A stretch of DNA of 64,000 nucleotides from Flavobacteriales bacterium (lineage in GTDB: Bacteria; Bacteroidota; Bacteroidia; Flavobacteriales_E; Vicingaceae), in contig CAJPFH010000028.1 of NCBI GenBank assembly GCA_905339165.1, positions 1 through 64,000 on the forward strand, in the 5' to 3' direction. This document shows positions 671 through 64,000 of the stretch, one piece after another (position 1 is the first letter of the stretch; the number at the start of each line of letters is the position of its first letter). Under the pieces are notes generated by a model. The model saw nothing but the letters and a program-made list of their open reading frames with translations. It did not search any database and had not been told where the DNA came from. Position numbers and translations under genes: made by a program.

Positions 671-1081
671 TTAAATATTTTTTACGTTAAGTCCTGAAAC
701 CATGTAATGTTCAAATTTTTCAGGAGAATCAATGATAGAACTTATCTTAATTTTCAAGATACCCTGTTCGTTGCATTGGCCTTCTGTCTCTTGGTTCGCT
801 TGAAGGATAAGTGTTTTAATTGTATTGTTTTTTTCGTATGTCCAGCCTCCGTTCTCATAAACTGCGTCAATCCACTCTACCGACACTTTAGTAGAATTAT
901 GGTTGATAAATTTTACAAGCACATATTCCTCATTTCCGCATGTAACTTTTTCGTAGAGAGCTTCCACTCCGCCTAACACGTATTGCCCATCGGCACGTAA
1001 GTTGGCATTTGTCCAGTTTTGAGAAAAAGCACTGATACTGATAAATGTGAGCATGATTAGGGATAAAAAAAATCTTTTCAT
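671..1081 (-). CDS. Small exported protein of unknown function
   Basis: 136 residues with a clear Sec signal peptide: MKRFF, a hydrophobic core, then a probable cut after AFS before QNW. The mature 115-residue part has two cysteines (CGNEE and CNEQG) and beta-rich, polar composition, with no domain I recognise. It lies between two secreted-protein genes with gaps of 22-23 bases on each side, so it probably belongs to one transcript with them. It could be an accessory or anchor protein for the large neighbours, but nothing in the sequence shows that. The start is the only ATG that includes the full signal peptide. Confidence 0.7.
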   Translation of the reverse strand: MKRFFLSLIMLTFISISAFSQNWTNANLRADGQYVLGGVEALYEKVTCGNEEYVLVKFINHNSTKVSVEWIDAVYENGGWTYEKNNTIKTLILQANQETEGQCNEQGILKIKISSIIDSPEKFEHYMVSGLNVKNI

Positions 1082-1103
1082 ATGGTTCTTTTTTAGTTTA
1101 AAC

Positions 1104-4073
1104 TTATCTTACAACTGTAACAGTTCCTTTTAAATTATGCGATTCGTCTGTTTTATCTTTGAATGAGAAAACATATACGTAAACCTCGGTTTCTACTTTT
1201 TTGTTATTAACGGTTCCATTCCATCCGGCAGCTATATCGTTGGTTTCAAAAATTAATTCACCCCAACGGTCGTAAATTTTCATTTTGAATGTCTCTGGTT
1301 GAATTAACTCTAATCTTCCTTTAATGTTAAACACATCGTTGATTCCATCGCCATTAGGTGTAAATGAATTTGGAATATAGTAGATAACATCTGGTTTTAC
1401 AACAACTTTATAAACCACCGTGTCGGTACAACCCCAATCGTTTTTTACCACTAGTGTTACATCATAGGTTCCTGTATCTCCGTATGTATGCTTCGGATTT
1501 TCAATATTGGTAGAATTTCCATCACCAAAATTCCAACTTAATGAAGTTTCGTAGTGTGAATGATTCTTGAAGTGAAATAATGGATTTAAAATGGTAGTTA
1601 CAGCTGGATCAAATGTAAATTCTGCGATAGGTTGAGGGTAAACATCTACCAAATCCTTCACAATGTAGTAGCTTTTACATCCATAATCTGAAACAACCTC
1701 TAATTCTACGGTAAAAATCTTTCTGTCTTTGGAACGATTAGTAAAACAATGCACCGGATTTTTTGCTGCAGAAAGTTCTCCATCGTTGAATGTCCATTTG
1801 TAATATTGAATAGTACTATTAAACTCGTTGGTAATAGTGCTTTGATCGAAAAAGTTTACACACAAAGGCGAACAACCCGATAATTCATCTGAATATGAAA
1901 ATTCGGCCTTTGGTTTTGGATAAATATCGGTAGGTTTAATCATCTCCGCCACGCAACCTTTATCCGAAGTAATCACTAACTGCACATTATAAGTGCCGGG
2001 AGTATAGAAAATATTTTTAGGGCTTGTTTGGCTACTAGTGGGAGATCCATCGCCAAAATTCCAATACCAAGAAGAAACGGTTCCAGAGCCTATCGTTGAT
2101 AAATCATTAAATAAGATGGTATCATTTTGGCAAGTAGTACTTAACGAAAAATCAGGTATTGGTTTTGGAAATACATCAACATATACTTCTGAGGTATCTT
2201 TACATCCACTATCGGAAATAGCAATTAAAGTAACCTTATAGTTTCCCCATGTATTGTATGTATAACTATCGTTAAAAGCATTGCTGGAACCACCATTTCC
2301 ATAATACCAAAGCCAACCGGTAATACTTCCATGGGGTATTATAGAGTAATTTTGGAAAGTTGTTGCATAGGTTTCACATACATTCGTTGCAGTAAAAATT
2401 GAAGAAGGTTGAGGGTTTACTACAATGGGTTTAACTATGGTATCGGCACACCCTTGATTGGTAACTACTATTAACTGTACATTATATGCCCCATAGTACT
2501 GATAATTATAGTTAAAGGAGTGTATCGTAGTGTCCGTTCCATTACCCAATGTCCATTTATTAAGTACAATATTTGCACTATTAACAGTAGATTGATTTAA
2601 AAAATTTGCCGTTTCGTAAATGCAAATATTTTTTGTTGTAAAATCAGCATTTGGTTTATCATAAACTCGCACCTGTTTGGTAATAGAATCCACGCATCCA
2701 CTATCTGATGTTACTACCAATTTTACATTAAAATATCCATAAGTACCATAGGTATAGAGGTTATTTTGAGTGTTTGAAGTATTTCCATCACCAAAATACC
2801 ACTGCCATGTATTAATAGAAGAACCCAAACCCAAACTAGTATTATCAATGAAAGTTGTTTTATTTCCCAAACAAACCGTGTCTGAGAAAAAGTCTACATA
2901 GGGTTTTGCATTCACAAATATAGTACCTTGAGCTGGCACCTTGCAGGGGCCTACGGAATAAGTAACCGTGTACGTGGTGGTCCATTGTGGGCTATCTGTC
3001 ATGGTGGGTGTTGTAATATTTCCCGGAACCCAATTATAGGTTCCTCCGGGAGTACTAACCACCGCCTCTAAGGTACCCGATTTTGTTTCGCAAATATATT
3101 TATCGGCAACAGTTACAGTAGGAGGAGGAGTAACCGTTAGACATACTACGTTTGAATAGGCAAATTGAGTACCAAAACAAGAAGTAAGTTGAGCCCTATA
3201 ACATAAACTCGATTGGGGAGCAACTAAAACATGCATATTTCCGTTTGCTCCGGGAATATCCGTCCATGGTCCATTTGCGGTAGGAGCCCATTGCCATTGA
3301 ATTTGACCGATAGAAACCCCTAAGGTTAGTGTATCATTTTGTCCTAAACAAATACTTCCGTTATTTATTGCGGCAGGACCTGCAGAAGGCATAGAATCTA
3401 CTACTACCGTAAAAAACAATGTAGTATCCTCACATCCGGTAGAAACAATGACATTATAATTCGTGGTAACTGTAGGTGTAACATTTATACAAGGTGTAGT
3501 AGCCCCTCCATTCCATGTATAGGTGTAATTACCTTGAGTAAAACAGCCCCCTGTGGCATTCACGCACAAAGTAGAATTTCCTCCTATACATATGGTATCT
3601 GCTGTTTGAGATTGAGTAACCACAAAAGGTGCGGGTGCTTGACCGGGAACTGTAAACTGGTAAGTGGGCATCCATGGACCCGGGGTTCCCCCTCCGGTGG
3701 GATTTTCTCTTACTCTCAAATAATATGTGCATCCTGCATTTAGGTTGGCGTATGGAATAAAAATAGGGTGGTAAGGTTCTACTGCACATTGATCTGGCCA
3801 ATTTGGCGGACCGTAATTCGGCACATTTAACAAAGATTGATACGAAACGTTTCCATTAAAATTATTGGGGTTGCATGCCAATTCGGCCTGCATATAATAC
3901 GGACCACAACCGCAGGTAGGTGAATCGGAACTTCCATTAATGGTAATACCTAATGGACCCGCTACAATAGTAAAATTAACTAATGGCATACCGTGGCATG
4001 CCAACACTTTACTTGAATTAAAAAAGATTGCTAAAAGAAAAATTGAAGAAAGTAGAATATTTTTAATACGCAT
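1104..4073 (-). CDS. Large PKD-repeat surface protein with T9SS type B (gliding motility-associated) C-terminal domain
   Basis: 989 residues with an N-terminal signal peptide (MRIKNI, hydrophobic core, LAC). The first third has Ig/fibronectin-like segments. The middle holds about six PKD modules, marked by FGDGNTSN, LGNGTDTT, YGNGGSSN, FGDGSPTS, FNDGELSA and FGDGNSTN. The last ~95 residues (IPNSFTPNGDGINDVFNI ... KMKIYDRWGELIFETND ... GTVTVVR) match the CHU_C / gliding motility-associated C-terminal family, which targets proteins to the outer surface through the Type IX secretion system. PKD modules usually mediate adhesion or spacing on the cell surface; the ligand is unknown. It is the first gene of a probable three-gene run of exported proteins. 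No catalytic domain is visible. Confidence 0.9.
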   Translation of the reverse strand: MRIKNILLSSIFLLAIFFNSSKVLACHGMPLVNFTIVAGPLGITINGSSDSPTCGCGPYYMQAELACNPNNFNGNVSYQSLLNVPNYGPPNWPDQCAVEPYHPIFIPYANLNAGCTYYLRVRENPTGGGTPGPWMPTYQFTVPGQAPAPFVVTQSQTADTICIGGNSTLCVNATGGCFTQGNYTYTWNGGATTPCINVTPTVTTNYNVIVSTGCEDTTLFFTVVVDSMPSAGPAAINNGSICLGQNDTLTLGVSIGQIQWQWAPTANGPWTDIPGANGNMHVLVAPQSSLCYRAQLTSCFGTQFAYSNVVCLTVTPPPTVTVADKYICETKSGTLEAVVSTPGGTYNWVPGNITTPTMTDSPQWTTTYTVTYSVGPCKVPAQGTIFVNAKPYVDFFSDTVCLGNKTTFIDNTSLGLGSSINTWQWYFGDGNTSNTQNNLYTYGTYGYFNVKLVVTSDSGCVDSITKQVRVYDKPNADFTTKNICIYETANFLNQSTVNSANIVLNKWTLGNGTDTTIHSFNYNYQYYGAYNVQLIVVTNQGCADTIVKPIVVNPQPSSIFTATNVCETYATTFQNYSIIPHGSITGWLWYYGNGGSSNAFNDSYTYNTWGNYKVTLIAISDSGCKDTSEVYVDVFPKPIPDFSLSTTCQNDTILFNDLSTIGSGTVSSWYWNFGDGSPTSSQTSPKNIFYTPGTYNVQLVITSDKGCVAEMIKPTDIYPKPKAEFSYSDELSGCSPLCVNFFDQSTITNEFNSTIQYYKWTFNDGELSAAKNPVHCFTNRSKDRKIFTVELEVVSDYGCKSYYIVKDLVDVYPQPIAEFTFDPAVTTILNPLFHFKNHSHYETSLSWNFGDGNSTNIENPKHTYGDTGTYDVTLVVKNDWGCTDTVVYKVVVKPDVIYYIPNSFTPNGDGINDVFNIKGRLELIQPETFKMKIYDRWGELIFETNDIAAGWNGTVNNKKVETEVYVYVFSFKDKTDESHNLKGTVTVVR

Positions 4074-4145
4074 GGTAAAATGTTTTATCTGAACACACTC
4101 AAGACGTAAAAAATTATATCAGGTTGCCTTTTTCAAATTGAAAGT

Positions 4146-6554
4146 TTAATACCATCTACTAAACTGTGTGTAAGAGGAATATATGGGGTTTAATTTAAAA
4201 TAGTCTGCAATCGTTTTTGAATATTTTTTTTGATCTGAAAAGTAATGTATCGCATCAAGGCTAGGCTGAGCTAAACGGTTATTTGCTTTTGTACCCGCTT
4301 CTACAAGGTTTTTCAATAGTTTCTCGTTAAAATAATTCAGTTTTTTAAGAGCATTTGCGGCATTTACCCTCGTTCTAAATTCGTAAGATGAAGAGGTAAA
4401 TTCAACGAGTTGGTGCACTGCCTCCATTTTATTTGTATAAAAATATTCCAATTCCAGTCTTTTTATGAGTGTGCTTTTTCCAACAGCCCCTTCTGTATCG
4501 CTCACTTTTTCAATATATTTTCCGGCATTTTCAGGAAAATGGGAACAAAGTAATTCTAAGGCTAATTCTATGTTCGAATAAGATTGGTCGTTTAGCATCT
4601 TTTCATATTCAGAAACCAATGATGCCGGAATGGTTGAAGTATTTTCCAAAACGGCTTTCTTTACTTCTGTTCTTTTATCGGAAAAAGCTTTTCGTATAAA
4701 ATCTATATCTACGTTGTTATTCGCGAACAACTGACTTACAATTTCAGTCTTTACGGCATAGAATACTTCTTTGTTAAATATTTCTAAGAGAAGGGGTTTC
4801 TTTTGCTCTATGGATATTTCTCGCATAGCAACTACCGCATCGTATCGGTCTATCATGTGTATGGCTTGTAACGCTTGTTTTTTGAGCATTTCAAAGGATT
4901 TAATAAAAGAACATTCTTTCATTATGTTGGAATTAGGATCAAACAAAACATAGGCAATTTCTTTTCCTTTTTTATTTGGAACTTTTACGACATGATTTTT
5001 ATTCTCAATCCATACTTTCATAGAATCCTTAGAGCCATCGATATAATGCACTTCGAACCAAACGGGCATTTTAAACAGGCCCACCACTTCGTTTGTTGAG
5101 TGTGTTTGTTCTATCTCAAATACACTGTTTTTCTGATTATTTTCTATGCTTTCGTAAAAACGTACCTGATAATGGGGCTCTCCTCCTTTATACACCCACT
5201 GCTCCCAAAACCAATCTAAAGATAACCCTAAGTTTTCATGAAAGGCAATGAGCAAATCTTCCGAATCAACATTTTTATAACCATGTTTTTCTATATAATA
5301 TTTAACTGATGAATTATACTGTTCTCTTCCTACTACGTACCGAAGCATATGTAATACATGAGCACCTTTGGGGTAATGGCGAGTGCTGCCGGCACTGCTG
5401 TTGGCAATGGGCTTGTAATCTTTTTTTGTTTCAGCAATAGCGACATTGGCCGCATTTCTTCGGTTCCAATCATAGTGTTCTTTTCCGAATACTTCATATT
5501 CATATAGCCAATTGTAAAAAGTGGCAAAACTTTCCTGAAGCCAGTGGTGTGCTGCACAACGTGCAGAAACCATATCGCCAAACCACTGGTGTGCCAACTC
5601 ATGAGCATTTACCGAAACATAATTTCTATCGTTGTAGGCCTTTTCATCTACCATAAAAAAGTCGCCAAAAACAGTAGCTGTGGTATTTTCCATGGCTCCA
5701 AACATAAAATCCTGCACAGGAATTTGGGAATAATTTTCCCATGGATATTTTACTCCTATCTCGTTTTCAAAAAAATCTACCATTTCGGCACTGTAGCGAT
5801 AGGTGGGTTCTACCCTTGTTTCCCAATCGGGATAATACCAAAGATCAATATTTACTCCGCTCTTCGATTTTATATTTTTGATTTTATATTCACCTATTCC
5901 CAACATGATAAGGTAGGTAGTGTGAGGTTTATTCATTTTGTAGTGCCAAAGGGTAGTGCCATCTTTTTGAGGTTTTTCTTCCAGCTTTACGCCATTGGAT
6001 AGTACCTTGTATTTATTGTTGAACTTCACAATAATTTCCGATGTTATTTTATCGTTTTGTTCATCATACATCGGAATCCAATGCCTATTATCTATACCTT
6101 GCCCTTGAGTCCAAATTTGTTTACGGCAAATTCCTTTGGGGTCGTTCCAACCAATAAAATAAATTCCTTTTTTGGGTACACACTCGTAGGTTATTTCTAA
6201 AAGATGCTTGGTTTTCCAAACGAGTGGCTTAAAGTAAAGAGTAATCCCATTCTCATACGTTTTATATTCTACATTAATTCCGTTTAATTTGGCCGATTTG
6301 ATATTTATGTTTATTCCGTCTAAAAAAATAGAATCTACATTTTGCTGAAGTGTAACAAAGGAATGCCAAACGGTTCCCTTAACCAGCCCTTTTTCTGGTT
6401 CGAAATCTACCAACAGCTTTAGGTGTTCAAAATCTACGTTGTGTTCTCGGGGTGTTAAGGATTCATCGTAAATATACGAACGGGTTTTTACTTGTGCTAA
6501 AAGCCCCTGTGCTGTTATTAAAAGAATTACCCAAAGTAAAACACCATTTTTCAT
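4146..6554 (-). CDS. M1 family zinc aminopeptidase, exported
   Basis: 802 residues from the ATG at 6554. The family signatures are GAMENT (about residues 286-291, substrate N-terminus binding) and HELAHQWFGD, with H318, E319, H322 and the third zinc ligand E341 in LQESFATF, giving the full HExxH-x18-E site. A signal peptide precedes the catalytic part, so it probably acts in the periplasm or outer envelope on peptides with free N-termini. The C-terminal ~250 residues look like the helical repeat region of M1 enzymes. An upstream ATG at 6575 exists, but the -7 promoter element at 6573-6580 overlaps it, and only the 6554 start gives a normal signal peptide, so I prefer 6554. It is monocistronic or a distal leader for the PKD gene 72 bases downstream. 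Confidence 0.93.
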   Translation of the reverse strand: MKNGVLLWVILLITAQGLLAQVKTRSYIYDESLTPREHNVDFEHLKLLVDFEPEKGLVKGTVWHSFVTLQQNVDSIFLDGININIKSAKLNGINVEYKTYENGITLYFKPLVWKTKHLLEITYECVPKKGIYFIGWNDPKGICRKQIWTQGQGIDNRHWIPMYDEQNDKITSEIIVKFNNKYKVLSNGVKLEEKPQKDGTTLWHYKMNKPHTTYLIMLGIGEYKIKNIKSKSGVNIDLWYYPDWETRVEPTYRYSAEMVDFFENEIGVKYPWENYSQIPVQDFMFGAMENTTATVFGDFFMVDEKAYNDRNYVSVNAHELAHQWFGDMVSARCAAHHWLQESFATFYNWLYEYEVFGKEHYDWNRRNAANVAIAETKKDYKPIANSSAGSTRHYPKGAHVLHMLRYVVGREQYNSSVKYYIEKHGYKNVDSEDLLIAFHENLGLSLDWFWEQWVYKGGEPHYQVRFYESIENNQKNSVFEIEQTHSTNEVVGLFKMPVWFEVHYIDGSKDSMKVWIENKNHVVKVPNKKGKEIAYVLFDPNSNIMKECSFIKSFEMLKKQALQAIHMIDRYDAVVAMREISIEQKKPLLLEIFNKEVFYAVKTEIVSQLFANNNVDIDFIRKAFSDKRTEVKKAVLENTSTIPASLVSEYEKMLNDQSYSNIELALELLCSHFPENAGKYIEKVSDTEGAVGKSTLIKRLELEYFYTNKMEAVHQLVEFTSSSYEFRTRVNAANALKKLNYFNEKLLKNLVEAGTKANNRLAQPSLDAIHYFSDQKKYSKTIADYFKLNPIYSSYTQFSRWY

Positions 6555-12682: not shown

Positions 12683-13909
12683 ATGAGCAAAAAAATTAAA
12701 GTGAGTAATCCTGTAGTAGAACTAGACGGAGACGAAATGACCAGAATTATTTGGAAATTTATTAAGGACAAACTCATTCTACCCTATTTAGAAATTGATA
12801 TAAAGTATTACGACTTAGGAATAGAATACAGAGACCAAACAAACGACCAAGTTACGATTGATGCTGCCGAGGCAATAAAAAAATATGGAGTGGGTATTAA
12901 ATGCGCTACCATTACCCCGGACGAAGCAAGAGTAGAAGAATTCAAGTTAAAGAAAATGTGGAAATCGCCCAATGGTACCATACGAAACATTGTGGGAGGA
13001 ACCGTTTTCAGAGAACCTATCATTTGCAGCAATGTGCCACGCCTTGTTCCGCATTGGACTCAGCCTATTGTAATTGGTCGCCACGCACATGCCGATCAAT
13101 ACAAAGCCACTGATGTTGTTGTAAAAGGAAAAGGAAAACTTACTATGACTTTTACCCCCGAAAACGGAGAAGCCCAAACATGGGAAGTTTTCAATTACAA
13201 AGGCGATGGGGTTGCCATGAGTATGTACAATACCGATGAGTCGATTTATGGATTTGCACACTCCTGTTTCAATCTTGCCCTCGATAAAGGGTGGCCTCTT
13301 TATCTCTCCACCAAAAACACCATTCTTAAAGCATACGATGGAAGATTTAAAGACATTTTTCAAGAAGTGTACGAAAAAGAATTTAAAACCAAATTTTCCG
13401 AAAAAGGAATAGTGTACGAACACCGCCTGATTGATGACATGGTAGCCTCGGCTATGAAATGGAACGGAGGATACGTGTGGGCCTGCAAAAACTACGATGG
13501 TGATGTACAAAGCGATACCGTGGCTCAAGGCTTTGGTTCTCTTGGTTTAATGACATCTGTACTCATTACTCCCGATGGAAAAACGGTGGAAGCAGAAGCT
13601 GCCCACGGAACCGTTACTCGCCATTACCGCATGCACCAACAAGGTAAACCAACCTCTACAAACCCTATTGCTTCTATTTTTGCATGGACAAGAGGGTTGT
13701 ATTACCGTGGCAAATTTGATGGAAATAACGAATTGATTCGTTTTGCCGAAACATTAGAAAAAGTTTGCATCGAAACGGTAGAAAGCGGTAAAATGACCAA
13801 AGATTTAGCCGTATGTATCTACGGAAACGAAGTAGCATCCGACAAATACCTTACAACCGAAAACTTTTTAGAAGCCATTAACCAACACCTTCAACACAAA
13901 TTAGCCTAA
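12683..13909 (+). CDS. icd: NADP-dependent isocitrate dehydrogenase (homodimeric type)
   Basis: 408 residues. It oxidatively decarboxylates isocitrate to 2-oxoglutarate in the TCA cycle and generates NADPH. The sequence is the eukaryote-like dimeric class: [12 protein letters not shown] at the N-terminus, SPNGTIRN (isocitrate-binding Ser and Arg), the [11 protein letters not shown]-like block, the metal-binding region around [22 protein letters not shown], and the NADP region [12 protein letters not shown]. About 15 bases before the gene an AT-rich segment contains a near-consensus -7 (TAACTTTTG, one base longer than usual). It is followed by a strong terminator, so it is probably monocistronic. 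Confidence 0.96.
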
Positions 13910-13930
13910 ATAAAAATTTCCGTTTACCTT

Positions 13931-13966
13931 AAATAAACCCCTTTCTTAAAGGGGTTTATTTTTTTG
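13931..13966 (+). terminator. Rho-independent terminator of icd
   Basis: A perfect 14-base stem (13931-13944 with 13948-13961) closed by the loop CTT and followed by T's. It begins 21 bases after the icd stop. Confidence 0.9.
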
Positions 13967-14151
13967 CCCCCCTCACAAAAAACATTTATTAATACTCCAT
14001 ACGTTTGTTTTACATATACATCAAAACCAAAGGGTAGCATACTCTCCTAAGCAAAAATCATTTAGATACCCTGCTGCCGCAAGTATTTACTTGTGGCATT
14101 ACAATTTGTATTTACTATTTCTTGCATGTTTTCTTGTTGAAGTTAAATAAC

Positions 14152-14193
14152 TTGTTTCTTTTCTTTTTTTCCGCTAAAAAAGAAAAGAAACAA
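14152..14193. repeat. 18-base perfect inverted repeat
   Basis: Arms at 14152-14169 and 14176-14193 are exact reverse complements, separated by TCCGCT. Both arms are pure pyrimidine or purine apart from one G/C (TTGTTTCTTTTC and so on). It is far from any gene end, so it is not an obvious terminator. It lies in the gene-free block 13967-14626, which otherwise holds only other palindromes and AT-rich filler. Confidence 0.7.
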
Positions 14194-14241
14194 AAGAAAA
14201 AACTCCTCGCTTAAAAAATGTTTCTAAAAACTATACTGCTT

Positions 14242-14275
14242 CTCGATATGCCCTCATGCTTCGGGCTACTCGAGG
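14242..14275. repeat. Imperfect palindrome of the intergenic repeat block
   Basis: CTCGATATGCCC and GGGCTACTCGAG pair with two mismatches around TCATGCTTC. It lies just before the REPIN-like repeat and is probably another dispersed intergenic unit. No second copy is in the window. Confidence 0.4.
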
Positions 14276-14300
14276 TGCAAAGAACGGTAAAAACCTCCGC

Positions 14301-14468
14301 TTAGATTCCGAAACAAGTTCGGAATGACGAGTTCTCTCATTGCGTCATGCTGAACTTGTTTCAGCATCTTTTTAGTTCGCAATGGCCTTCTTTTGTTTTG
14401 CCTTTCAAAATTTAAAATTTCAAGATTTCCACTTTTAACTTTCTACTTTACTCTGGGATTGCTTCAGT
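14301..14468 (+). repeat. REPIN-like dispersed repeat, copy 1
   Basis: About 168 bases that recur, nearly identical, in inverted orientation at 63807-63980. It contains two hairpins in opposite orientation: stem 14305-14312/14318-14325 with loop ACAAG, and stem 14347-14354/14360-14367 with loop CTTGT. Read from opposite strands they share the layout AGAT-stem-ACAAG-stem-ATGA but have different, internally compensated stem bases. The rest is an AT-rich tail. Any ORF across it is not a gene. Confidence 0.85.
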
Positions 14469-14481
14469 TGAGCCTTGTTTA

Positions 14482-14508
14482 CCCCCCCCCAACCCCTCTT
14501 AAGAGGGG
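14482..14508. repeat. C9 run followed by a 16-base perfect palindrome
   Basis: C9 at 14482-14490 is followed by CCCCTCTTAAGAGGGG (14493-14508), a perfect palindrome without a loop. It interrupts the otherwise collinear AT-rich tail next to REPIN copy 1. Confidence 0.6.
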
Positions 14509-14575
14509 AGTTTGCTTACATTTTCAAACTTTTAACTTTCACATTTTCACTTTCATCTCGTTAGTGTTAAGAAAC

Positions 14576-14599
14576 CTTTTTCTTTTTCTTTTTCTTTTT
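14576..14599. repeat. Short tandem repeat (CTTTTT)x4
   Basis: Four exact hexanucleotide units, just beyond the 3' end of the pseudogene remnant. The array is short and no ORF crosses it in a meaningful frame. Confidence 0.7.
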
Positions 14600-14626
14600 T
14601 TATTTCTCCTGTTGCTGCGGTGTAGG

Positions 14627-14912
14627 TTACAAGGTAAAAATAGGTGCAAAATACTGAGAGGTAAAATGGCGGATGCTGTCAACGAAAACAATTACTGCTG
14701 TTTGGCAAGTATTGATGTTTTGTGCATTAAGCATGCTTGTAACATTAATGAATACTGCTAATACAACGGTTTTTTAATGCTCCAAAAATGGGGTTGGAGG
14801 CAAGAGACTCATAATGAATGTGTTACAAATGCTTGGTACAAAGGTAGAAAAAAAGAAATAAAGCAACAGAAATAAATTTTCAATTATTATCTCTTTGTTG
14901 TTGGCTCATGTT
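14627..14912 (-). pseudogene. Truncated promoter and 5' remnant of the 58.5-kb T9SS surface-protein gene
   Basis: Read on the minus strand, 14912-14690 aligns closely with 58383-58602 on the plus strand. Shared are AACATGAGCCAACA at the start, the AT-rich spacer, the -7 element (TACCTTTG at 14846-14839 against TATCTTTG), TTTGTACCA, the ATG (14812-14810) in CATTATGA, and the signal-peptide codons: AVFINVTSMLNAQNINTCQTA against AVFVNVTSMLHAQNNNSCQTA. After CQTAVI the similarity stops and the frame ends at a TAA (14629-14627). The ATG frame itself closes after 12 codons at a TAA (14776-14774) in the same place as in the full-length gene. It is a decayed duplicate, a donor/silent cassette, or the scar of an internal deletion. 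Confidence 0.75.
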
Positions 14913-14959
14913 ATTAGAAGAAATTCTTCATAAAGAACAAGGGGCTAATATATTTTTTA

Positions 14960-14967
14960 TACATTTG
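14960..14967 (+). promoter_or_regulatory. -7 element (TACATTTG) of the NSS transporter promoter
   Basis: An exact TAnnTTTG match, 19 bases before the ATG at 14987. No TTG is at the right distance upstream, so the -33 half is weak or absent. Confidence 0.5.
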
Positions 14968-14986
14968 GAAAGAAAACAAATTTTAT

Positions 14987-16645
14987 ATGACAGTTAAAGA
15001 AGCATGGGGCTCTCGTATAGGTCTTATTTTAGCAATGGCCGGCAATGCCGTTGGTTTGGGCAATTTTCTCCGATTTCCGGTTAAAGCGGTTCAAAATGGC
15101 GGAGGAGAATTTATTATTCCCTATTTAGTTTGTTTTTTGGTAATGGGCTTACCTCTGCTGTTTGTTGAATGGGGAATGGGACGGTTCGGTGGAAAATTTG
15201 GAGACCACTCTACCCCATTTATACTCAACAATATGACCAAAAAGAATTTTTGGAAGTACTTTGGAGTATTCGGTATTTTTACCAACTTCGGAGTAATTGC
15301 CTATTATACTTATATTGAATCGTGGACTTTAGCCTACGTTTTCGAATCTATAAAAGGAACTTTTGTAGGAATGGACATTCAAGCCGTTGGCAACTTTTTT
15401 AATGAATATGTAGATATAAAAAGCGATGGAAGCATCTTTAACTGGCCAATAAAAGCCATTATATTCTTCACCATTACATTGGCAATAAACATCTACATCT
15501 TATCCAAAGGATTAAGCGGAGGAATTGAAAAAGCAGCCAAAATTGCCATGCCCCTATTGTTGGTTTTTGGTTTATTTTTAGCAATAAGAGGACTAACTCT
15601 TGGCAAAACAGGCGAATGTGTTGGTTGCGACTCAAACGTGGCATTAGCCTTTATTTGGGAACCCAGCTTAAACGGTTTATGGAATTTTAAAACATGGCTA
15701 GAAGCAGCTGGTCAAGTATTTTTTACCCTTTCGGTAGGAATGGGAACCATTCAATGTTATGCCTCATACATACGTTCAAAAGATGATATTGCCTTAAATG
15801 CAGTTAGTGCTGGTTTTATGAACGAATTTGTAGAAATTGTGTTGGGGGCATCTATTGTGATACCTATTGCAGTAGGATACTTAGGTATGGATTGGGTGAT
15901 GGAAAATGCCGGCTTTATGATGGCATTTAAAACCATGCCCTTTTTATTTGATAACTGGGGGGCTACCCTTGGTATTGCAGCCGGAGTAATGTGGTTTGGT
16001 TTGCTTTTTTTTGCCGGTGTAACCTCTTCTTTAGCTATGGGTACCCCATGGATGGGTTTTATGGAACACGAATTCGACTGGAGCAGAAAAAAAGCCGCCT
16101 TTGTTTTTGGCTGCATTGTATTTGTACTAGCAATCCCTCCTATCATTTTATTCCAACAAGGAGTGTTTGATGAATATGACTATTGGTCGGGAACTGTATC
16201 GCTAGTTGTTTTTGCTTTAGCTGAGGTAATAATTTTCGGCTGGGTGTTTGGAATAGATAAAGCCTGGCATGAAGTAACACACGGGGCTGATATAAAAATA
16301 CCTACTATTTTCAAGTTCTTTATTAAATGGGTAACCCCCCTTTTTATTTCCGTTGTTTTTATTGGCGCTCTCATAAAACCCAATGGAGACCAATGGGCCG
16401 AATCATGGAATAGTTTTACTTCGGGTAACGGATGGATATTTGATAACGGCAGTATATTAAACCAAATTTTTCGATTTAACACTCCGGCTACAGAACTTAA
16501 ATGGTTTGTTGAGGGCAGCCCCACCTCCTTGTTTTTTGTAGATATGAGCAGGCTTCTTTTAACATTAACTTTTTTGTTCGTGTGTTATTTAGTTTACGTT
16601 GCCTCTAAAAAAAGAAATAATAGAATTCCCGTAGAACATAAATAA
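14987..16645 (+). CDS. Neurotransmitter:sodium symporter (NSS/SNF) family transporter
   Basis: 552 residues with about 12 hydrophobic segments. The N-terminus WGSRIGLILAMAGNAVGLGNFLRFP is described here by its hallmark: the unwound TM1 motif NAVGLGNFLRFP, which binds sodium and substrate in LeuT-fold NSS proteins; NGGGEFIIPY follows. Such bacterial proteins import amino acids with Na+. Substrate cannot be read from the sequence. The next gene is a 47-residue single-span protein of the MetS type, the partner of the methionine transporter MetP in Corynebacterium, so a MetP-like two-part system is a reasonable reading. A well-placed -7 promoter element precedes it. Confidence 0.93.
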   Translation: MTVKEAWGSRIGLILAMAGNAVGLGNFLRFPVKAVQNGGGEFIIPYLVCFLVMGLPLLFVEWGMGRFGGKFGDHSTPFILNNMTKKNFWKYFGVFGIFTNFGVIAYYTYIESWTLAYVFESIKGTFVGMDIQAVGNFFNEYVDIKSDGSIFNWPIKAIIFFTITLAINIYILSKGLSGGIEKAAKIAMPLLLVFGLFLAIRGLTLGKTGECVGCDSNVALAFIWEPSLNGLWNFKTWLEAAGQVFFTLSVGMGTIQCYASYIRSKDDIALNAVSAGFMNEFVEIVLGASIVIPIAVGYLGMDWVMENAGFMMAFKTMPFLFDNWGATLGIAAGVMWFGLLFFAGVTSSLAMGTPWMGFMEHEFDWSRKKAAFVFGCIVFVLAIPPIILFQQGVFDEYDYWSGTVSLVVFALAEVIIFGWVFGIDKAWHEVTHGADIKIPTIFKFFIKWVTPLFISVVFIGALIKPNGDQWAESWNSFTSGNGWIFDNGSILNQIFRFNTPATELKWFVEGSPTSLFFVDMSRLLLTLTFLFVCYLVYVASKKRNNRIPVEHK

Positions 16646-57336: not shown

Positions 57337-58389
57337 ATGGAACGCTATACAAAATATTTTTGGTACTCCTTTCTTATTCTTTGTGCTTTACTACTCGCCT
57401 CATTTTTGTTTAAAGTAGTGGTTTACTTAGCCATTGTTTTTGTGTTGCTTATTCTTACATCGCCTGTTCGCAGATTCCTATTACAGTTTCCATTTTTCGA
57501 AAAACACAAATGGTTTTCCGCTTTATGTATTGTATGTACAGTGCTACTTTTCTTCGCTGGCTCATTTTTTATATTTATTCCGTTAGTAGTAACAGAGGCA
57601 AAAAAAATATATACAACCGATACCGGTGCTATTGTTTCTAATTTCGAACATTTATTTATTCAACTTAAAGCGTACATAGATACACTCAACCTTTCGGAGT
57701 ACGAATTGCACCAACAATACATTCAGGAAAAACTTATAAGCCTAATAAATTTAGGAAACATTCCGTTGTTGCTCCGTAATATTGTAGGTATTACAGGCGA
57801 TATTTTTGTGGGAATTTTTGCCGTACTTTTTATATTTTTCTTTTGCCTAAAAGATTACGAAAAAATTAAATTGAACCTTATTCATCTTTTTTCGGAAAGC
57901 AAAAGAGAAAAGATTTACACCTCTCTGCATCGTGCTCAACAACTGTTTCAGCGATACGTTGTAGGATTATTTTTAGAAGTAATTGCCGTAAGTATTTTAA
58001 CCGCTACAGGTATGTTTATCATTGGTTCCGAAAGCATTTTACTAATTGCATTTTTGGCCGGAATTCTAAACCTAATTCCCTATCTGGGTCCACTAATAGC
58101 CGCTTTTGTGTGTACACTGCTGGGGGTTTATTATCATCTTTCTGAAGATTTAATTTCGGTTGTTCTACCTTTGGCTATAAAATATATTATTGTTTTTACA
58201 AGTGTTCAACTAATAGATAATTTGTTATTGCAACCCTATATTTATTCGAATAGTATTAAGGCTCATCCCTTAGAAATATTTATTATTCTTTTAGCAGCAG
58301 GAACTGCAGGTGGCATTGGAGCTATGATGGTGGCTATTCCAACATACACTATTCTGAAAGTTTTTATTATGGAATTAAATAAAACATGA
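57337..58389 (+). CDS. AI-2E family transporter
   Basis: 350 residues, with the AI-2E (TqsA/PerM-like) layout: two N-terminal TM helices, a helical cytoplasmic/periplasmic segment, then a pair of hairpins with GVGLFLEV-type motif (YVVGLFLEVIAVSILTATGMFIIG) and the signature IPYLGPLIAAFVCTLLG and NLLLQPYIYSNSIKAHPLEIFIILLAAG, in that order. Substrate is not known for most members; Na+/H+ antiport has been reported for some. It follows rodA by 21 bases, so it may ride on the rod operon. Confidence 0.9.
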   Translation: MERYTKYFWYSFLILCALLLASFLFKVVVYLAIVFVLLILTSPVRRFLLQFPFFEKHKWFSALCIVCTVLLFFAGSFFIFIPLVVTEAKKIYTTDTGAIVSNFEHLFIQLKAYIDTLNLSEYELHQQYIQEKLISLINLGNIPLLLRNIVGITGDIFVGIFAVLFIFFFCLKDYEKIKLNLIHLFSESKREKIYTSLHRAQQLFQRYVVGLFLEVIAVSILTATGMFIIGSESILLIAFLAGILNLIPYLGPLIAAFVCTLLGVYYHLSEDLISVVLPLAIKYIIVFTSVQLIDNLLLQPYIYSNSIKAHPLEIFIILLAAGTAGGIGAMMVAIPTYTILKVFIMELNKT

Positions 58390-58426
58390 GCCAACACCAA
58401 AAGCAATAATAATTGCAACATAATTC

Positions 58427-58457
58427 TTGTTCTCTGCTTTATTTTTCTCTATCTTTG
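58427..58457 (+). promoter_or_regulatory. Promoter of the 58.5-kb surface-protein gene
   Basis: TTG (58427-58429), 20-base spacer, TATCTTTG (58450-58457), an exact consensus. The element recurs as TACCTTTG in the truncated copy at 14839-14846. It places transcription start around 58464, about 20 bases before the ATG at 58484. Confidence 0.7.
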
Positions 58458-58495
58458 TACCACACCTTTATAAAGTACTCATTATGAAACACTTA

Positions 58496-58503
58496 CCCCC
58501 CCC
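58496..58503 (+). repeat. C8 homopolymer in the start region of the surface-protein gene
   Basis: Eight C's directly after ATG-AAA-CAC-TTA (58484-58495). With eight C's the ATG frame stops at TAA (58517-58519); with nine it would enter the long reading frame and complete the signal peptide. Confidence 0.85.
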
Positions 58504-58527
58504 ATTTTCGGGACACTAAAAACCCTT

Positions 58528-61500
58528 GTGTTTGCAGTATTTGTTAATGTTACCAGCATGCTCCATGCACAAAACAACAACTCTTGCCAAACGGCAGCCA
58601 TTTTAAATCCGGTATTGGAATGTAACAGCCCGCAAACTTTTGTTTTTGGTAATGGGCAGACGGAGCAATGGTTTAGTTTTAATACAGGAAGCAGTCAATT
58701 TTTCATATTGGAATATGCTATTCATTCTTCTTACTACAAATATTCCGTTGATTTATTTAGTGGAAATTGCAATAGTAACCTGTTTATTAAAACAGACACC
58801 CTTGCAAATTATGTTTTTTTAGATGAATTGTTTTATGAAAACTTAGATAGCAATACTCAGCATTATATCAGAATAAATAAACTAAGCAACTCAAATACTA
58901 ATGACACCATTACCCTTTGTCTAAACAACAAAAATATGTTGGATAATGATTTTGAAGCCTGTATTACATTAGACCCTTTGAGCAATATTTTTGGGTGGTG
59001 CTGTGCACAAGAAGGAGAGCCAATAAAAAATTGCTCTTGGGAAGAATCAGGAATCGGTTGTTACAACACTCCTTTTACAGTGAAAAGCAGTTATGGTGGA
59101 GCAGGTATAAGGATAGTATGGACGTTACCGGGTGCAGTCATTATTAAAGACTGGGTGGGAAATAATTCAAGTTTGAGTGTAACGAATTACACCATACCTT
59201 CCGGATTCTATCCTCCGGGTTCAGGAAATTGGGTACTCGCAGGGGTTTCAGCCGAGTATTTTAAAGAGGATGGTTTTGGAAACTATTATCCATTAAATAA
59301 AAAAATAAGTATTACATTCTCTGTTGTTGTTCCACATGCAGAACCCCATTTTGAAATTGTTGGAAACGGGCCATTTTGCATGGGAGATGAGGTTTGTTTT
59401 GATTTTTATTCAAATAATACGGAAACAAAAGATATCTTCACTACTATAGGTATATTTGAACCTTATATACCTTTTTTTTCTTATCCTGACCCGGTTATTA
59501 ATTCACATACGGGAGGAATTGGCATATTAACCGAAACAAAATGCTTCCAATACCTTTCCCCCGGTATTTACACACCCACATTAACCACTGAAAACGCTTG
59601 TGGTATTTGGAGCAAAACACTAACACTGGAAATAGGCCCCTACCCCAAATTTGAAGTCCCCGAACCCTTATGTGCCGGGCAGGAATTTACCTTTACCAAT
59701 AACACAACCTGCCTGCAATATGTGCAAAGTTGGTTTTGGGATTTTGGCGATGGTTTTTCCAGCACCCAGCCTAACCCCTCACACACCTACACCACCCCGG
59801 GTAACTATACCGTTACACTTTGCTTAACCGATGCCAACGGACAGCAACATTGCATTACCCAGTCGGTAGAAGTACACCCCAGTCCTGCATCGCCTGTTAT
59901 TTTGGGCAACTTGTTTGTATGCGACCCCAACCCCGAATTTTGTGTACAAAACCAACAGCCGGGCGAAACTTATACTTGGAACATCACCAATGGATTTCCT
60001 CAATCGTACAACGGGCCCTGCGTAGAAGTGAACTGGACTCAGAACGGAAGCGGATTCCATACCGTAATGGCCACTAACGAATTTGGCTGTATAGCCGTTA
60101 CCGATGCCGAAGTAGCCGAATGTTGTTATAAAGAGGACATCAATAACCCGGGTACAGAAATAAACCTATACAATACATCGGCTTCTTTTATCATTAATAA
60201 TATTTTAGGAGGAAGCACTACCTGGACTACCAACACCTTCATTAACCTAAACGGGGTAATGGAAATTGACCAAGACTTTACTTTTTCCAATTGCCCCAAT
60301 ATTTACCTTGGGCAAAATGCACGCATTGAAATACCAACAGGTAAAAAATTGCGTATAGAAAATGCCAGTAAGTTGGAAGCCGCCTGCCCCGATAAAATGT
60401 GGGATGGCATTTACCTGCAAACTTTTACCTCGCAGTTAGAAGCCGACTTCAGCACCTTTATGCATGCCCAAAACGCTATTGTTTCTCAAAATGGAGCTAA
60501 ATACACCATTACATCATCTACCTTCAACCAAAACTGGATAGGCATCAAAGTAGAACCTTTTTCTTTTAACCACCCGGGCATTGTTACAGCCGGAGCCTTT
60601 GGCCCTACCAGCTTTTTATGTACAGCCCCACTGATGTATCCACACCTGAATAAACGCAGCCATGCCGGAGTATTAATTGAAAGAGTAGGAAACCAAAACG
60701 GAAATATTACCATAGGCTCCAGTCTGCTGTTCGATAACCAAAACACTGGCATATTAGCCGATCAAAGTTATTTAACAGTAATAGGAAATACTTTCCAACA
60801 TATGGGTATTACACAGGGGCAAGGCGGAGGTATTGGCGTACATGCCATGGGAGGCAAGTTTAGCACCCAAACATTGGTGGGAGGGGCTAATGCCAACCAA
60901 AACCATTTTAACAACTGCTTTATTGGGGTGCTTATTGAAGGCTGGCAGCAGGCCGAAGTAAGCCACAATACATTTAACAGCAACAACAATGGTGGAGGTA
61001 CAGGAATTTCTGTAAAAAATGTTACTAACTTTAACATCCCTATTCCGTACAAGAACATTATCATAGCCCAAAACCAGATAAACAATTACCAAACCGGCAT
61101 AAACCTGTACAACAACATGAACGCCAAAATAAACGTGTTAAAAAATACCATTAACCAGCAAGGTATACCGTTTGGCAGTGGCATTATTGCACAGGAAATG
61201 CCCATAAGTACCACCTTTAACCTTACCATTATTACCGACAATAACATTACCGCCCCCGCTACCGGTATTAGTGCAGGCGGTTTACGCAATGCCCTGATAG
61301 AAAACAACAGCATAAGCAAGCTGAAACAATTCCCTATGTTTAATACGTATGGGGTATTGCTGCGAGGCTGTTTGAATGCAAAAATAAATGCAAATACCGT
61401 AAGCAGCCAAAACCCAAGCACCAACACCCGCCAGCACGGCTACGCCTTCGAGATGAGCGAAGCCACCTTGGCCACCTGCAATGAAGCCGATAAAACAGGT

Positions 61501-62631
61501 ACAGGTATGCGTTGTGCGGGGGTGATGCCCAACAGTTTTATTTTGGGCAATGCATTTAAAAATAATTACCACGGTTTTACCATGACCAACAATGCCATTA
61601 TTGGCGAACAGTATAGAATGGTGCAAGGAGTAAAATACCCCTCCGATAACCGTTGGCAGGGAAATTTTAATTCGAGAATCAATGCTAACGCCACAATGAA
61701 TCCCGATAAAAATTTATCTCCTTTTAATGTTCGTAGTATTTCAGGAAACAATCCTTTTTATCCTAATGCAGGTGTATTCCCATTAACAAATGAAGTTGTT
61801 GTTTCGCTTTTAGTTGAAAATCCGCCTTTAAAATGTGGTAAAATAGACAATCCCGGCATTAAAAAAGGCATATCCCAACAAATTGCCAAAAAACAAATTC
61901 CAATAAATGATACCGCTTCTATTATTGGACGTATGCAGGTGTTTGAAACCTTGCGACAAACCTACACATGGCAGCCCGACACTCTTCTTGCCCAGTTTGC
62001 CGATAGTATGCAAACTACATCATACCGAACTCTTCAGCTAATAGATAGTGTAATGTTTGATACTGCACAGTGCAACGCAACTTTACTAAGTACTTGCCAA
62101 AATATTACATCCCAAAACCACGTAGAGCAGCACATACAAACGGCTACTGAAATTTATATAAACTCTCGCATAAGTAACAACGGTATTTACACCCCCCAGC
62201 AAATTTCTGATTTGGAAAACATAGCCTGGCTTTGCCCATTTGATGATGGATTGGGTGTTTACTTGGCTCGTTTTCTGTTGCAGGAAGTAAACGATACAGA
62301 ATACCTGAATAGTTGTGAAGAAGCAAACGGAAACAACCTGAGAATTTTCAGCAGTGAAGAAGAAAACGAAATTACGTTTGAAGCTATTTCAAGCAAAGAT
62401 AGTATAAGCGTTTACCCCAACCCTGCCAATGAAAGCATACATATAGAATCAAGCGGTAAACAGCCCTTGCACATTGATATATTTGATATGGTAGGTCGTA
62501 AAGTATTATCACATTATTCTGTAAACCAACGTACATCAGTAAATGTAGTTAATATGCCAACAGGATTGTATATAATAAAAATACGTACAGGAGATATTGG
62601 AAAAAATTACAAAATAAACATACAACATTAA
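58528..62631 (+). CDS. Giant PKD/beta-helix surface protein with T9SS type A C-terminal sorting domain
   Basis: At least 1367 codons open from a GTG at 58528. That start leaves only part of a signal peptide (FAVFVNVTSMLHAQ); the ATG at 58484 would supply the rest (MKHLPPPIFGTLKTLV) if one base were added in the C8 tract. Order: unknown N-terminal region (about 1-370), a PKD module (FWDFGDGFSSTQPNPSHTYTTPG), a second Ig-like unit, a long right-handed beta-helix region (about 540-1010, repeated N-rich turns such as GNTFQHMG, HNTFNSN, NQINNY, NNSISKL), an unknown segment, and the T9SS type A end (ISVYPNPANESIHIES ... MPTGLYIIKI). GC jumps inside the gene (see findings). Surface-exposed adhesin or polysaccharide-binding protein, by family. 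Confidence 0.88.
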   Translation: MFAVFVNVTSMLHAQNNNSCQTAAILNPVLECNSPQTFVFGNGQTEQWFSFNTGSSQFFILEYAIHSSYYKYSVDLFSGNCNSNLFIKTDTLANYVFLDELFYENLDSNTQHYIRINKLSNSNTNDTITLCLNNKNMLDNDFEACITLDPLSNIFGWCCAQEGEPIKNCSWEESGIGCYNTPFTVKSSYGGAGIRIVWTLPGAVIIKDWVGNNSSLSVTNYTIPSGFYPPGSGNWVLAGVSAEYFKEDGFGNYYPLNKKISITFSVVVPHAEPHFEIVGNGPFCMGDEVCFDFYSNNTETKDIFTTIGIFEPYIPFFSYPDPVINSHTGGIGILTETKCFQYLSPGIYTPTLTTENACGIWSKTLTLEIGPYPKFEVPEPLCAGQEFTFTNNTTCLQYVQSWFWDFGDGFSSTQPNPSHTYTTPGNYTVTLCLTDANGQQHCITQSVEVHPSPASPVILGNLFVCDPNPEFCVQNQQPGETYTWNITNGFPQSYNGPCVEVNWTQNGSGFHTVMATNEFGCIAVTDAEVAECCYKEDINNPGTEINLYNTSASFIINNILGGSTTWTTNTFINLNGVMEIDQDFTFSNCPNIYLGQNARIEIPTGKKLRIENASKLEAACPDKMWDGIYLQTFTSQLEADFSTFMHAQNAIVSQNGAKYTITSSTFNQNWIGIKVEPFSFNHPGIVTAGAFGPTSFLCTAPLMYPHLNKRSHAGVLIERVGNQNGNITIGSSLLFDNQNTGILADQSYLTVIGNTFQHMGITQGQGGGIGVHAMGGKFSTQTLVGGANANQNHFNNCFIGVLIEGWQQAEVSHNTFNSNNNGGGTGISVKNVTNFNIPIPYKNIIIAQNQINNYQTGINLYNNMNAKINVLKNTINQQGIPFGSGIIAQEMPISTTFNLTIITDNNITAPATGISAGGLRNALIENNSISKLKQFPMFNTYGVLLRGCLNAKINANTVSSQNPSTNTRQHGYAFEMSEATLATCNEADKTGTGMRCAGVMPNSFILGNAFKNNYHGFTMTNNAIIGEQYRMVQGVKYPSDNRWQGNFNSRINANATMNPDKNLSPFNVRSISGNNPFYPNAGVFPLTNEVVVSLLVENPPLKCGKIDNPGIKKGISQQIAKKQIPINDTASIIGRMQVFETLRQTYTWQPDTLLAQFADSMQTTSYRTLQLIDSVMFDTAQCNATLLSTCQNITSQNHVEQHIQTATEIYINSRISNNGIYTPQQISDLENIAWLCPFDDGLGVYLARFLLQEVNDTEYLNSCEEANGNNLRIFSSEEENEITFEAISSKDSISVYPNPANESIHIESSGKQPLHIDIFDMVGRKVLSHYSVNQRTSVNVVNMPTGLYIIKIRTGDIGKNYKINIQH

Positions 62632-62666
62632 TAATATAGCAGGTGTTAAAGACATCTGTTTTTTTT

Positions 62667-63698
62667 ATGAAATATTTAAAATTTTTATTTGTATTACTTT
62701 TTCTGCCGATGTTATACTTTGGGCAAAACAATTTGGCATTAAATCCATCTTTTGAAGAATTTGTAACACCTTGTAATTTCCCGGCAGGAGCTATTAGATG
62801 GGGCGAAAGGGTAGTTGGTTGGTCTTCTCCTGATGCATTAGACCCTGATTATTTTAACGAATGTAGGGGCGGTAGTATTGGAATCCCTAAGAATGATTTA
62901 GGATTTGAGTACGCAAAAGATAGTAAAGCTTATGTTGGATTTCACCCATACGACTCTACCATTTCTTCAAATACTGAATTTTTACAAGGAACATTATTAA
63001 AAGTCTTACAAAAAGATACAATTTATTGTATCTCCTTTTGGATAAGCCATGCTGATAGTGTGCATTATTATATTAATGCCAAACACATAGGTGTATGGTT
63101 TATTAATTACAAGAGTGGTTATCCACCTACAGTAACACTAAATGATAGTTTGCCTTTTATACAACAAAAAATAGCCTTTATACCAGATACTTTTTACATG
63201 GAAAATGATAGTGGATGGACAGAGCTAAAAACTACCTACAAAGCTAAAGGTGGTGAAACACATTTTATCATTGGAAACTTTACTCCTCATAATCAAGTTA
63301 ACACCTCATATAAAGCAAATGGTAAGACCAACGGATATAAAAATTTCGCCTACTACTACCTAGACGAAGTAAGCATTTACCGTTGCAACGATACCCTACC
63401 GCCCCCTGTACCCAAAGATACCGCCTACTTAAACCTGCCCACCGCCTTTTCGCCTAATGGAGATGGGCAAAACGATGTGTTTAGTGTATTGGGAGCAAAG
63501 TATGTGCAAAGCATAGAGTTGCGGATATATAACCGCTGGGGGCAGGAGGTATTTTACACCAACCAAAAAGAAACAGGCTGGGATGGCACGTTTAAAGGGC
63601 AGCCTGCCCCCACAGGAGTGTATGCCTACACGCTGGTAGCCACCCTGCCAAACGGAGAGGTAATAACCAAAAAAGGAAATGTTACTTTGAAGAGATGA
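62667..63698 (+). CDS. Secreted protein with jelly-roll-like N-terminal domain and T9SS type B C-terminal domain
   Basis: 343 residues from the ATG at 62667 (MKYLKFLFVLLFLPM ... FGQ signal peptide); the frame is open further upstream through a T8 run, but without better start. The N-terminal ~220 residues (NLALNPSFEEFVTPCNF ... WTELKTTYKAKGGETHFIIGNF) resemble galactose-binding-like modules seen in Bacteroidota surface proteins. The C-terminus (LPTAFSPNGDGQNDVFSVLG ... RIYNRWGQEVFYT ... TGVYAYTLVA ... KGNVTLKR) is the gliding motility-associated CHU_C domain. It follows the giant gene by 35 bases. DNA for the last ~110 codons is notably GC-richer than the first part. Confidence 0.88.
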   Translation: MKYLKFLFVLLFLPMLYFGQNNLALNPSFEEFVTPCNFPAGAIRWGERVVGWSSPDALDPDYFNECRGGSIGIPKNDLGFEYAKDSKAYVGFHPYDSTISSNTEFLQGTLLKVLQKDTIYCISFWISHADSVHYYINAKHIGVWFINYKSGYPPTVTLNDSLPFIQQKIAFIPDTFYMENDSGWTELKTTYKAKGGETHFIIGNFTPHNQVNTSYKANGKTNGYKNFAYYYLDEVSIYRCNDTLPPPVPKDTAYLNLPTAFSPNGDGQNDVFSVLGAKYVQSIELRIYNRWGQEVFYTNQKETGWDGTFKGQPAPTGVYAYTLVATLPNGEVITKKGNVTLKR

Positions 63699-63806
63699 GA
63701 GATGAAAGAGGAAATATGAAAGTTGAAATAAGAAATTTTGAAAAGTGGAAATGTAAAAACTGAAATTAGAAATGAACATTTACCGTCATTGCGAAGGAGG
63801 CACGAC
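63699..63806. other. Purine-rich non-coding tract after the T9SS type B gene
   Basis: The plus strand is almost free of C for about 80 bases (repeated GAAA, GTTGAAA, AATTTTGAAA-like units), followed by TCATTGCGAAGGAGGCACGACTGAAGC-like sequence given here only in part, an intergenic repeat type common in bacteria. ORFs read on the minus strand are by-products. A similar, shorter tract stands in the same relative place next to REPIN copy 1. Confidence 0.6.
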
Positions 63807-63980
63807 TGAAGCAATCCCAGAGTAAAGTAGAAAGTTAAAAGTGGAAATCTTGAAATCTTAAATTTTGAAAGGCAAAACAAAAGAAGGTCATTGTGAACTA
63901 AAGAGATGCTGAAACAAGTTCAGCATGACGCAATGCGAGAAAAAAGGAGGTCATTCCGAACTTGTTTCGGAATCTAAGTG
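63807..63980 (-). repeat. REPIN-like dispersed repeat, copy 2
   Basis: Reverse-complement copy of 14301-14468 with few differences. Hairpins: stem 63906-63913/63919-63926 with loop ACAAG, and stem 63953-63960/63966-63973 with loop CTTGT. The two loops are complementary to each other. The last 20 bases of the window lie beyond the repeat. Confidence 0.85.
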
Positions 63981-64000
63981 AAGCAAACCATACCCCCATC

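Follow-up and report, generated by a model that had tools for sequence, protein, structure and literature searches.

A decayed copy of a multicopy, putatively phase-variable surface-protein module in a Flavobacteriales genome

The segment at positions 14069 to 14945 (minus strand) of the window, by which we mean the whole 64,000-nucleotide stretch of DNA analyzed here, is, judged from its sequence, a dead remnant, lacking its interior, of a multicopy surface-protein module. The window belongs to contig C28 of the genome under study (G000, 3.16 Mb in 136 contigs), which was compared with a sister genome (G005, a MAG); both are draft assemblies. We consider it probable (roughly 80%) that the module family is a repertoire of secreted surface proteins made phase-variable by strand slippage, with a logic like that of Opa, and that the relic is one decayed member of it. 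By itself the relic is of little weight, except as a cue to this family. The earlier note on this DNA overlooked the poly-C tract, the feature that explains why the shared 5′ cassette matters.

The relic was first noticed from a proposed similarity between its 5′ part and the promoter and 5′ end of a surface gene 44 kb away. Searching the genome with 58383-58602 recovered C28:14695-14912 on the minus strand with 77% identity over 215 of the 220 query bases (E = 3.8e-39), so the similarity is real and, as had also been claimed, far above chance. All of the parts said to be shared are present in the relic, namely AACATGAGCCAACA, the -7 element TACCTTTG (14839-14846, minus strand; a Bacteroidota-type promoter TAnnTTTG by sequence reading and alignment), TTTGTACCA, the ATG and the VFxNVTSML codons. 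The description as a degenerate duplicate is borne out by two frame-breaking changes, the ~77% identity and an internal deletion, whereas the idea of a second copy, one of two, fails, as the cassette occurs at six places in G000 and five in G005. The ATG (14810-14812, minus strand) stands where the intact copies have their start codon and opens only MSLLPPTPFLEH before a stop. In the alignment of copies, the usual run of 8-10 C is replaced by a ruined tract of 11 nt, CCTCCAACCCC (14790-14800, minus strand), which is followed by one extra A. Because the tract is interrupted and out of frame, an extra base is present and the body is deleted, the relic can neither switch nor encode the surface protein and is itself no phase-variable gene. 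The differences fall on the three codon positions as 8/4/8 in the relic versus 11/5/15 in a control pair, too few sites to judge decay.

The similarity had been reported to stop after CQTA with the rest of the gene missing, and each statement holds in part. Against the 58 kb allele the match does end there, but against the allele on G005 contig C18 (80% identity overall) it extends 43 nt further, up to position 14647, and the alignment then skips ~5.1 kb and resumes at the far end of that module. A recombination hotspot at CQTA, shared with a deletion in the G005 counterpart of the 58 kb gene, was considered and rejected, as the relic's breakpoint is 14647 and not CQTA. The relic thus comprises, up to its internal deletion junction, the 5′ cassette and the first ~60 codons (60-odd; 14647-14912, minus strand). 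About 5 kb of the module interior is indeed gone, but 14647-14069 retains the 3′ end of such a module. This stretch begins with the C-terminal part of a T9SS type B gene (14553-14647, minus strand; GTYFYLVTYTAATGEIKKEKEKEKGFLTLTR and a stop, translated by eye), which is collinear with the 3′ end of the C18 locus in G005 and is joined to the 5′ part out of frame, and continues into a downstream region closing with a terminal hairpin, TGCCACAAGTAAATACTTGCGGCA (14075-14098, minus strand), at which the homology of independent copies ends. The remnant as a whole (877 bp) was delimited by its matches to both module ends and by its absence at the orthologous site of G005. Interspersed palindromic repeats, TCATGCTGAACTTGTTTCAGCATC and CCCCCAACCCCTCTTAAGAGGGG, lie inside it (14295-14373 and 14480-14515), and part of the 3′ similarity among modules comes from such repeats.

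An intact module of the same family lies on the plus strand near the other end of the window. Sequence reading, search and alignment place its 5′ cassette at 58383-58602, with a -7 element TATCTTTG at 58450-58457, an ATG at 58484-58486 and a tract of eight C at 58496-58503, out of frame and hence OFF in the assembly; the ATG and the -7 element were assigned by sequence reading. Behind the tract, ORF reading and domain searches identified a large surface protein body, open for 1,375 codons (58504-62631, plus strand), with a PKD domain and a T9SS type A sorting domain, and a second gene (62643-63698, plus strand) with a T9SS type B sorting domain (CHU_C). The sorting domains scored 47.3 bits for TIGR04183 (cut-off 23) and 67.1 bits for TIGR04131 (cut-off 35). 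A putative signal peptide, recognized by eye, combined with a C-terminal sorting domain above cut-off is what is expected of T9SS cargo. The module's 3′ region (63716-63983, plus strand) is homologous to 14556-14295 of the window, with 80% identity over 272 columns. At the other edge, the stop codon of an AI-2E transporter gene falls within the first bases shared among cassettes, AAACATGAGCC (58380-58395).

The genome-wide search with 58383-58602 that the earlier note had called for found six 5′ cassette copies with at least two different bodies behind them. Besides the 58 kb copy (C28_58k) and the relic (77%), these are C31:71704 (95%), C65:34278 (90%), C45:102568 (88%) and C38:56403 (86%). 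The C45 match covers only the part from promoter to tract, and the body behind it differs, with ~33% protein identity. In the alignment the -7 element reads TAnCTTTG, the ATG follows ~26 nt downstream, and a C run comes four codons later in most copies (C28_58k 8, C31 9, C65 8, C38 10, C45 8); in the C38 copy, ATA replaces the ATG and three bases are added. Several cassette places of G000 and G005 are cut by contig ends, and exactly 141 identical bases are common to the ends of C38 and C65, of C6 and C3, and of C51 and C105. Such exact 141-base ends are what an assembler leaves when it breaks contigs at repeats, so more full copies exist than the contigs show; C38, C65, C3 and C6 probably represent both ends of two full copies.

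The length of the tract sets entry into the downstream reading frame. With nine C, the ATG frame reads MKHLPPPIFGTLKTLVFAVFINVTSMLHAQ, a putative signal peptide (judged by eye), and then runs into the 1,375-codon body in C31, whereas with eight C the ATG frame of C28_58k ends after 11 codons. Nine-C tracts in frame are found in C31 and in G005 C6 and C18, and the in-frame use of the ATG is further backed by the 9-nt tract of G005 C14. A start further downstream would leave no signal peptide, as the next in-frame ATG of both C28_58k and C31 is close to the site where signal cleavage is expected (SMLHAQ). The bodies are open and under purifying selection: they run for 1,375 (C28_58k), 1,375 (C31) and 1,304 (C45) codons, although the tracts are out of frame in two of the three, and the C28 and C31 bodies differ at ~25% of bases with no stops and a dN/dS of 0.212/0.851, or about 0.25. 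The arrangement is that of a slipped-strand repeat, i.e., 8-15 C within ~42 nt after the ATG and downstream of a promoter-like site. G000 holds ~39 runs of at least eight C, 13 of them directly after an ATG versus 0.7-1 expected from random placement (assuming 2,500-3,500 genes), and a reversed control pattern gave no matches in this genome.

These features suggest how working copies may operate. In a module made up of the cassette (a Bacteroidota promoter, an ATG and poly-C in signal-peptide codons), the type A body, the type B gene and the 3′ end, replication slippage would change the number of C. Lengths that keep the frame (nine in most copies; 8, 11 or 14 in copies of a second family with one extra base, described below) would connect the ATG with the 1,300-1,400-codon body of the large-protein copies and yield a full signal peptide, MKHLPPPIFGTLKTLVFAVF, with the protein made and exported. 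At other lengths translation would end some dozen codons in. With several copies switching independently of one another, a population would then present a mixed surface. We infer slippage in living cells, export and a selective cause such as phages, predators or surface adhesion.

Comparison with the sister genome, in which orthologous loci were paired through upstream flanks 88-99% identical, provides further alleles in favor of the phase-variable reading. Of the 11 orthologous pairs, 10 have tracts that differ in length or composition; ON and OFF here denote the consensus states of the assemblies. The C65 copy has eight C (OFF) versus nine (ON) in G005 C6, the C45 copy eight (OFF) versus nine (ON) in G005 C18, and C72 12 C versus nine in its partner; C51 and its partner both have 11. 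Allelic tract lengths therefore differ, as expected of slipped-strand phase variation. G005 C14 carries CCCTCTCCC, nine nucleotides in frame without a slippery run, and this locked-ON allele shows that the intended reading frame passes through the tract.

Some copies are decaying, as seen in G005 C18, where the tract is ON and the body is split into several ORFs. The G005 orthologue of the 58 kb gene (C20:853-4098) has a ~3.5 kb internal deletion (between the equivalents of window 58590 and 62078) and ATA in place of ATG. Together with the relic, the ATA start of C38 and the frameshifted bodies of the second-family copies on C8 and C3, this orthologue would suit plain gene decay, whereby duplicated genes are going bad and the tract differences are ordinary frameshifts in dying genes. 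We regard this explanation as unlikely, because out-of-frame members keep 1,375, 1,304, 439, 372 and 358 open codons, the bodies show the low dN/dS given above, and long C tracts are concentrated directly after start codons.

Only one of the 13 tracts of G000 is in frame. Homopolymers can be slippery, and the predominance of out-of-frame tracts in G000 could also fit a situation with no mutational switching, in which OFF lengths yield some protein because the polymerase or the ribosome slips on the C run. Such slippage is unneeded for the differences between orthologues, and six of the ten assembled tracts of G005 are in frame, which makes this scenario distinctly unlikely. When G000, G005 and six open-bodied tracts of other genera are pooled, 7 of 29 tracts are in frame, a proportion not different from one third.

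The relic had also been proposed as a silent cassette able to recombine with the expressed locus, or as a promoter donor. The C28 and C31 bodies are mosaics, with 95% identity in codons 400-600 and 49% in 1200-1400, which makes recombination among full copies likely and would be in keeping with gene conversion from a donor. The relic itself makes a poor donor: its variable coding body, the part that a pilS-like silent locus would supply, is deleted, its identity is only ~77%, it could pass on only a broken tract and a frameshift, and it is an isolated copy whose site in G005 is empty. Gene conversion from the relic to an expressed locus is accordingly highly improbable, and the same low identity, two frame-breaking changes and isolated position leave the promoter-donor role unsupported.

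How the copies arise is a separate matter, and movement of whole modules would be compatible with phase variation, as it concerns only their origin. On G005 C20 the equivalents of window 12683-14068 and 14946-16645 are joined directly without 14069-14945, and the Iso_dh and SNF genes adjoin at this empty site. The hairpin TGCCACAAGTAAATACTTGCGGCA is found at C28:14075, C31:63945 and C3:2702 in G000 and at C7:610 in G005, with no control matches; the homology of the three G000 copies and the G005 copy stops at it, and this common edge hints at modules inserted as units. It is tempting to speculate that whole units move in a transposition-like manner through the 3′ terminal hairpin, with the relic as an internally deleted, non-autonomous copy, given that the shared hairpin end coincides with the edge of the G005 empty site and that cassettes at different places have a common 5′ edge, (A)AACATGAGCCAACA. 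We nevertheless hold this to be doubtful. No transposase was connected with the module in this analysis, there is no matching 5′ terminal structure, and only three such hairpins occur in G000. The 3′ end of the remnant is sharp with respect to the empty site, but the 5′ end is fuzzy, the edge of the inserted segment lying 33 bp outside the shared cassette edge. Insertion and deletion are not polarized by an outgroup, as the Iso_dh-SNF neighborhood is not kept outside the genus among the outgroups examined for this purpose. The proposal that a switchable cassette, a T9SS type A gene, a T9SS type B gene and a hairpin-ended 3′ flank make up a mobile unit in Bacteroidota, with the relic as a deletion derivative seen alongside its empty site, is likewise tentative. 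If modules were mobile, the genome would gain and lose independently switching surface genes through insertion and internal deletion. The transposable elements to be compared would be those with a terminal hairpin, of the IS200/IS605 or REP/RAYT type. Downstream of the ON copy on C31 (L007, G000 C31:61704-78000, positions 870-5941), three T9SS type B (CHU_C-like) genes alternate with 3′ fragments of the large gene, one of which is entered by a hairpin-ended module end; the copies look nested.

Switching by slippage is well known in pathogens. Neisseria pilC carries a run of G in signal-peptide codons, and thus shares with the putative system described here a homopolymer in the signal peptide and control by frame shift, but it comprises two pilus-associated genes rather than a large T9SS family. 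Closest in logic is Neisseria opa, with CTCTT repeats in leader-peptide codons (PMC3960869): multicopy surface proteins, a repeat in signal-peptide codons whose frame sets ON or OFF, independent copies and inter-copy recombination. The opa system involves a pentamer and outer-membrane barrels, in contrast to the C tract and large T9SS-sorted proteins of these environmental Flavobacteriales, where the switching is deduced from sequence. Within Bacteroidota, a 2025 review describes phase variation in gut Bacteroides chiefly by DNA inversion (capsule promoters, SusC/SusD) and does not mention Flavobacterium (PMC11868660); surface components and reversible switching, putative in the present case, are common to both, but inversion depends on a recombinase rather than on tract slippage. 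The two genes of the module carry TIGR04183/TIGR04131 sorting domains, and these models are silent on phase variation. In the open-access literature, to which our searches were confined, we found no account of poly-C or slippage switching of T9SS surface proteins, environmental Bacteroidota included. If phase variation holds, it would account for the pseudogene-like appearance of such genes in assemblies (the tract being off by one base) and for the contig breaks they cause, and environmental Flavobacteriales could be tested for it simply at the level of reads.

Another multicopy surface family, the second in G000 (C32, C45:1.8k, C51, C55, C105, C8 and C3), has the same device, with 8-15 C in the signal peptide between a basic n-region and NYLKISLLCLLMSIF, which also favors a switch over decay. 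Its bodies (L075, L077, L080, L081, L085, L090 and L091) resemble tail-fibre or endosialidase-chaperone proteins, with VGVGTxNP repeats and a WCDYVFxxxYxL end, and gave no Pfam match above cut-off. At L084 2444 (G000 C72:3943), the same kind of start, an ATG and a 12-C tract, precedes a different body, rich in glycine, which stops early at 207 codons, ahead of a putative transposase-like sequence. Among 46 genomes of the family, which are also those covered by the order-level search, the cassette-like pattern is strong in this genus only. Across the class, a stricter pattern matched 13 of 395 genomes versus about seven or eight for the reversed control, a count weak by itself. Open bodies behind the tract were found in four other genera: G067 (1,035 aa), G130 (663 aa), G252 (513 aa) and G317, whose three loci have bodies of 1,067, 588 and at least 114 aa, the last two tail-fibre-like as in the second family. 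These G317 loci (L342, L343 and L344), from another family of the class, have three paralogous MKN-(A/T/S)-(F/L)-T-[poly-C] signal peptides with different bodies and look like an independent case of this device. Finally, at L348 (G307 C2:126057) a 23-C tract follows ATGAAGTATATCTA in frame, with a stop 42 codons on.
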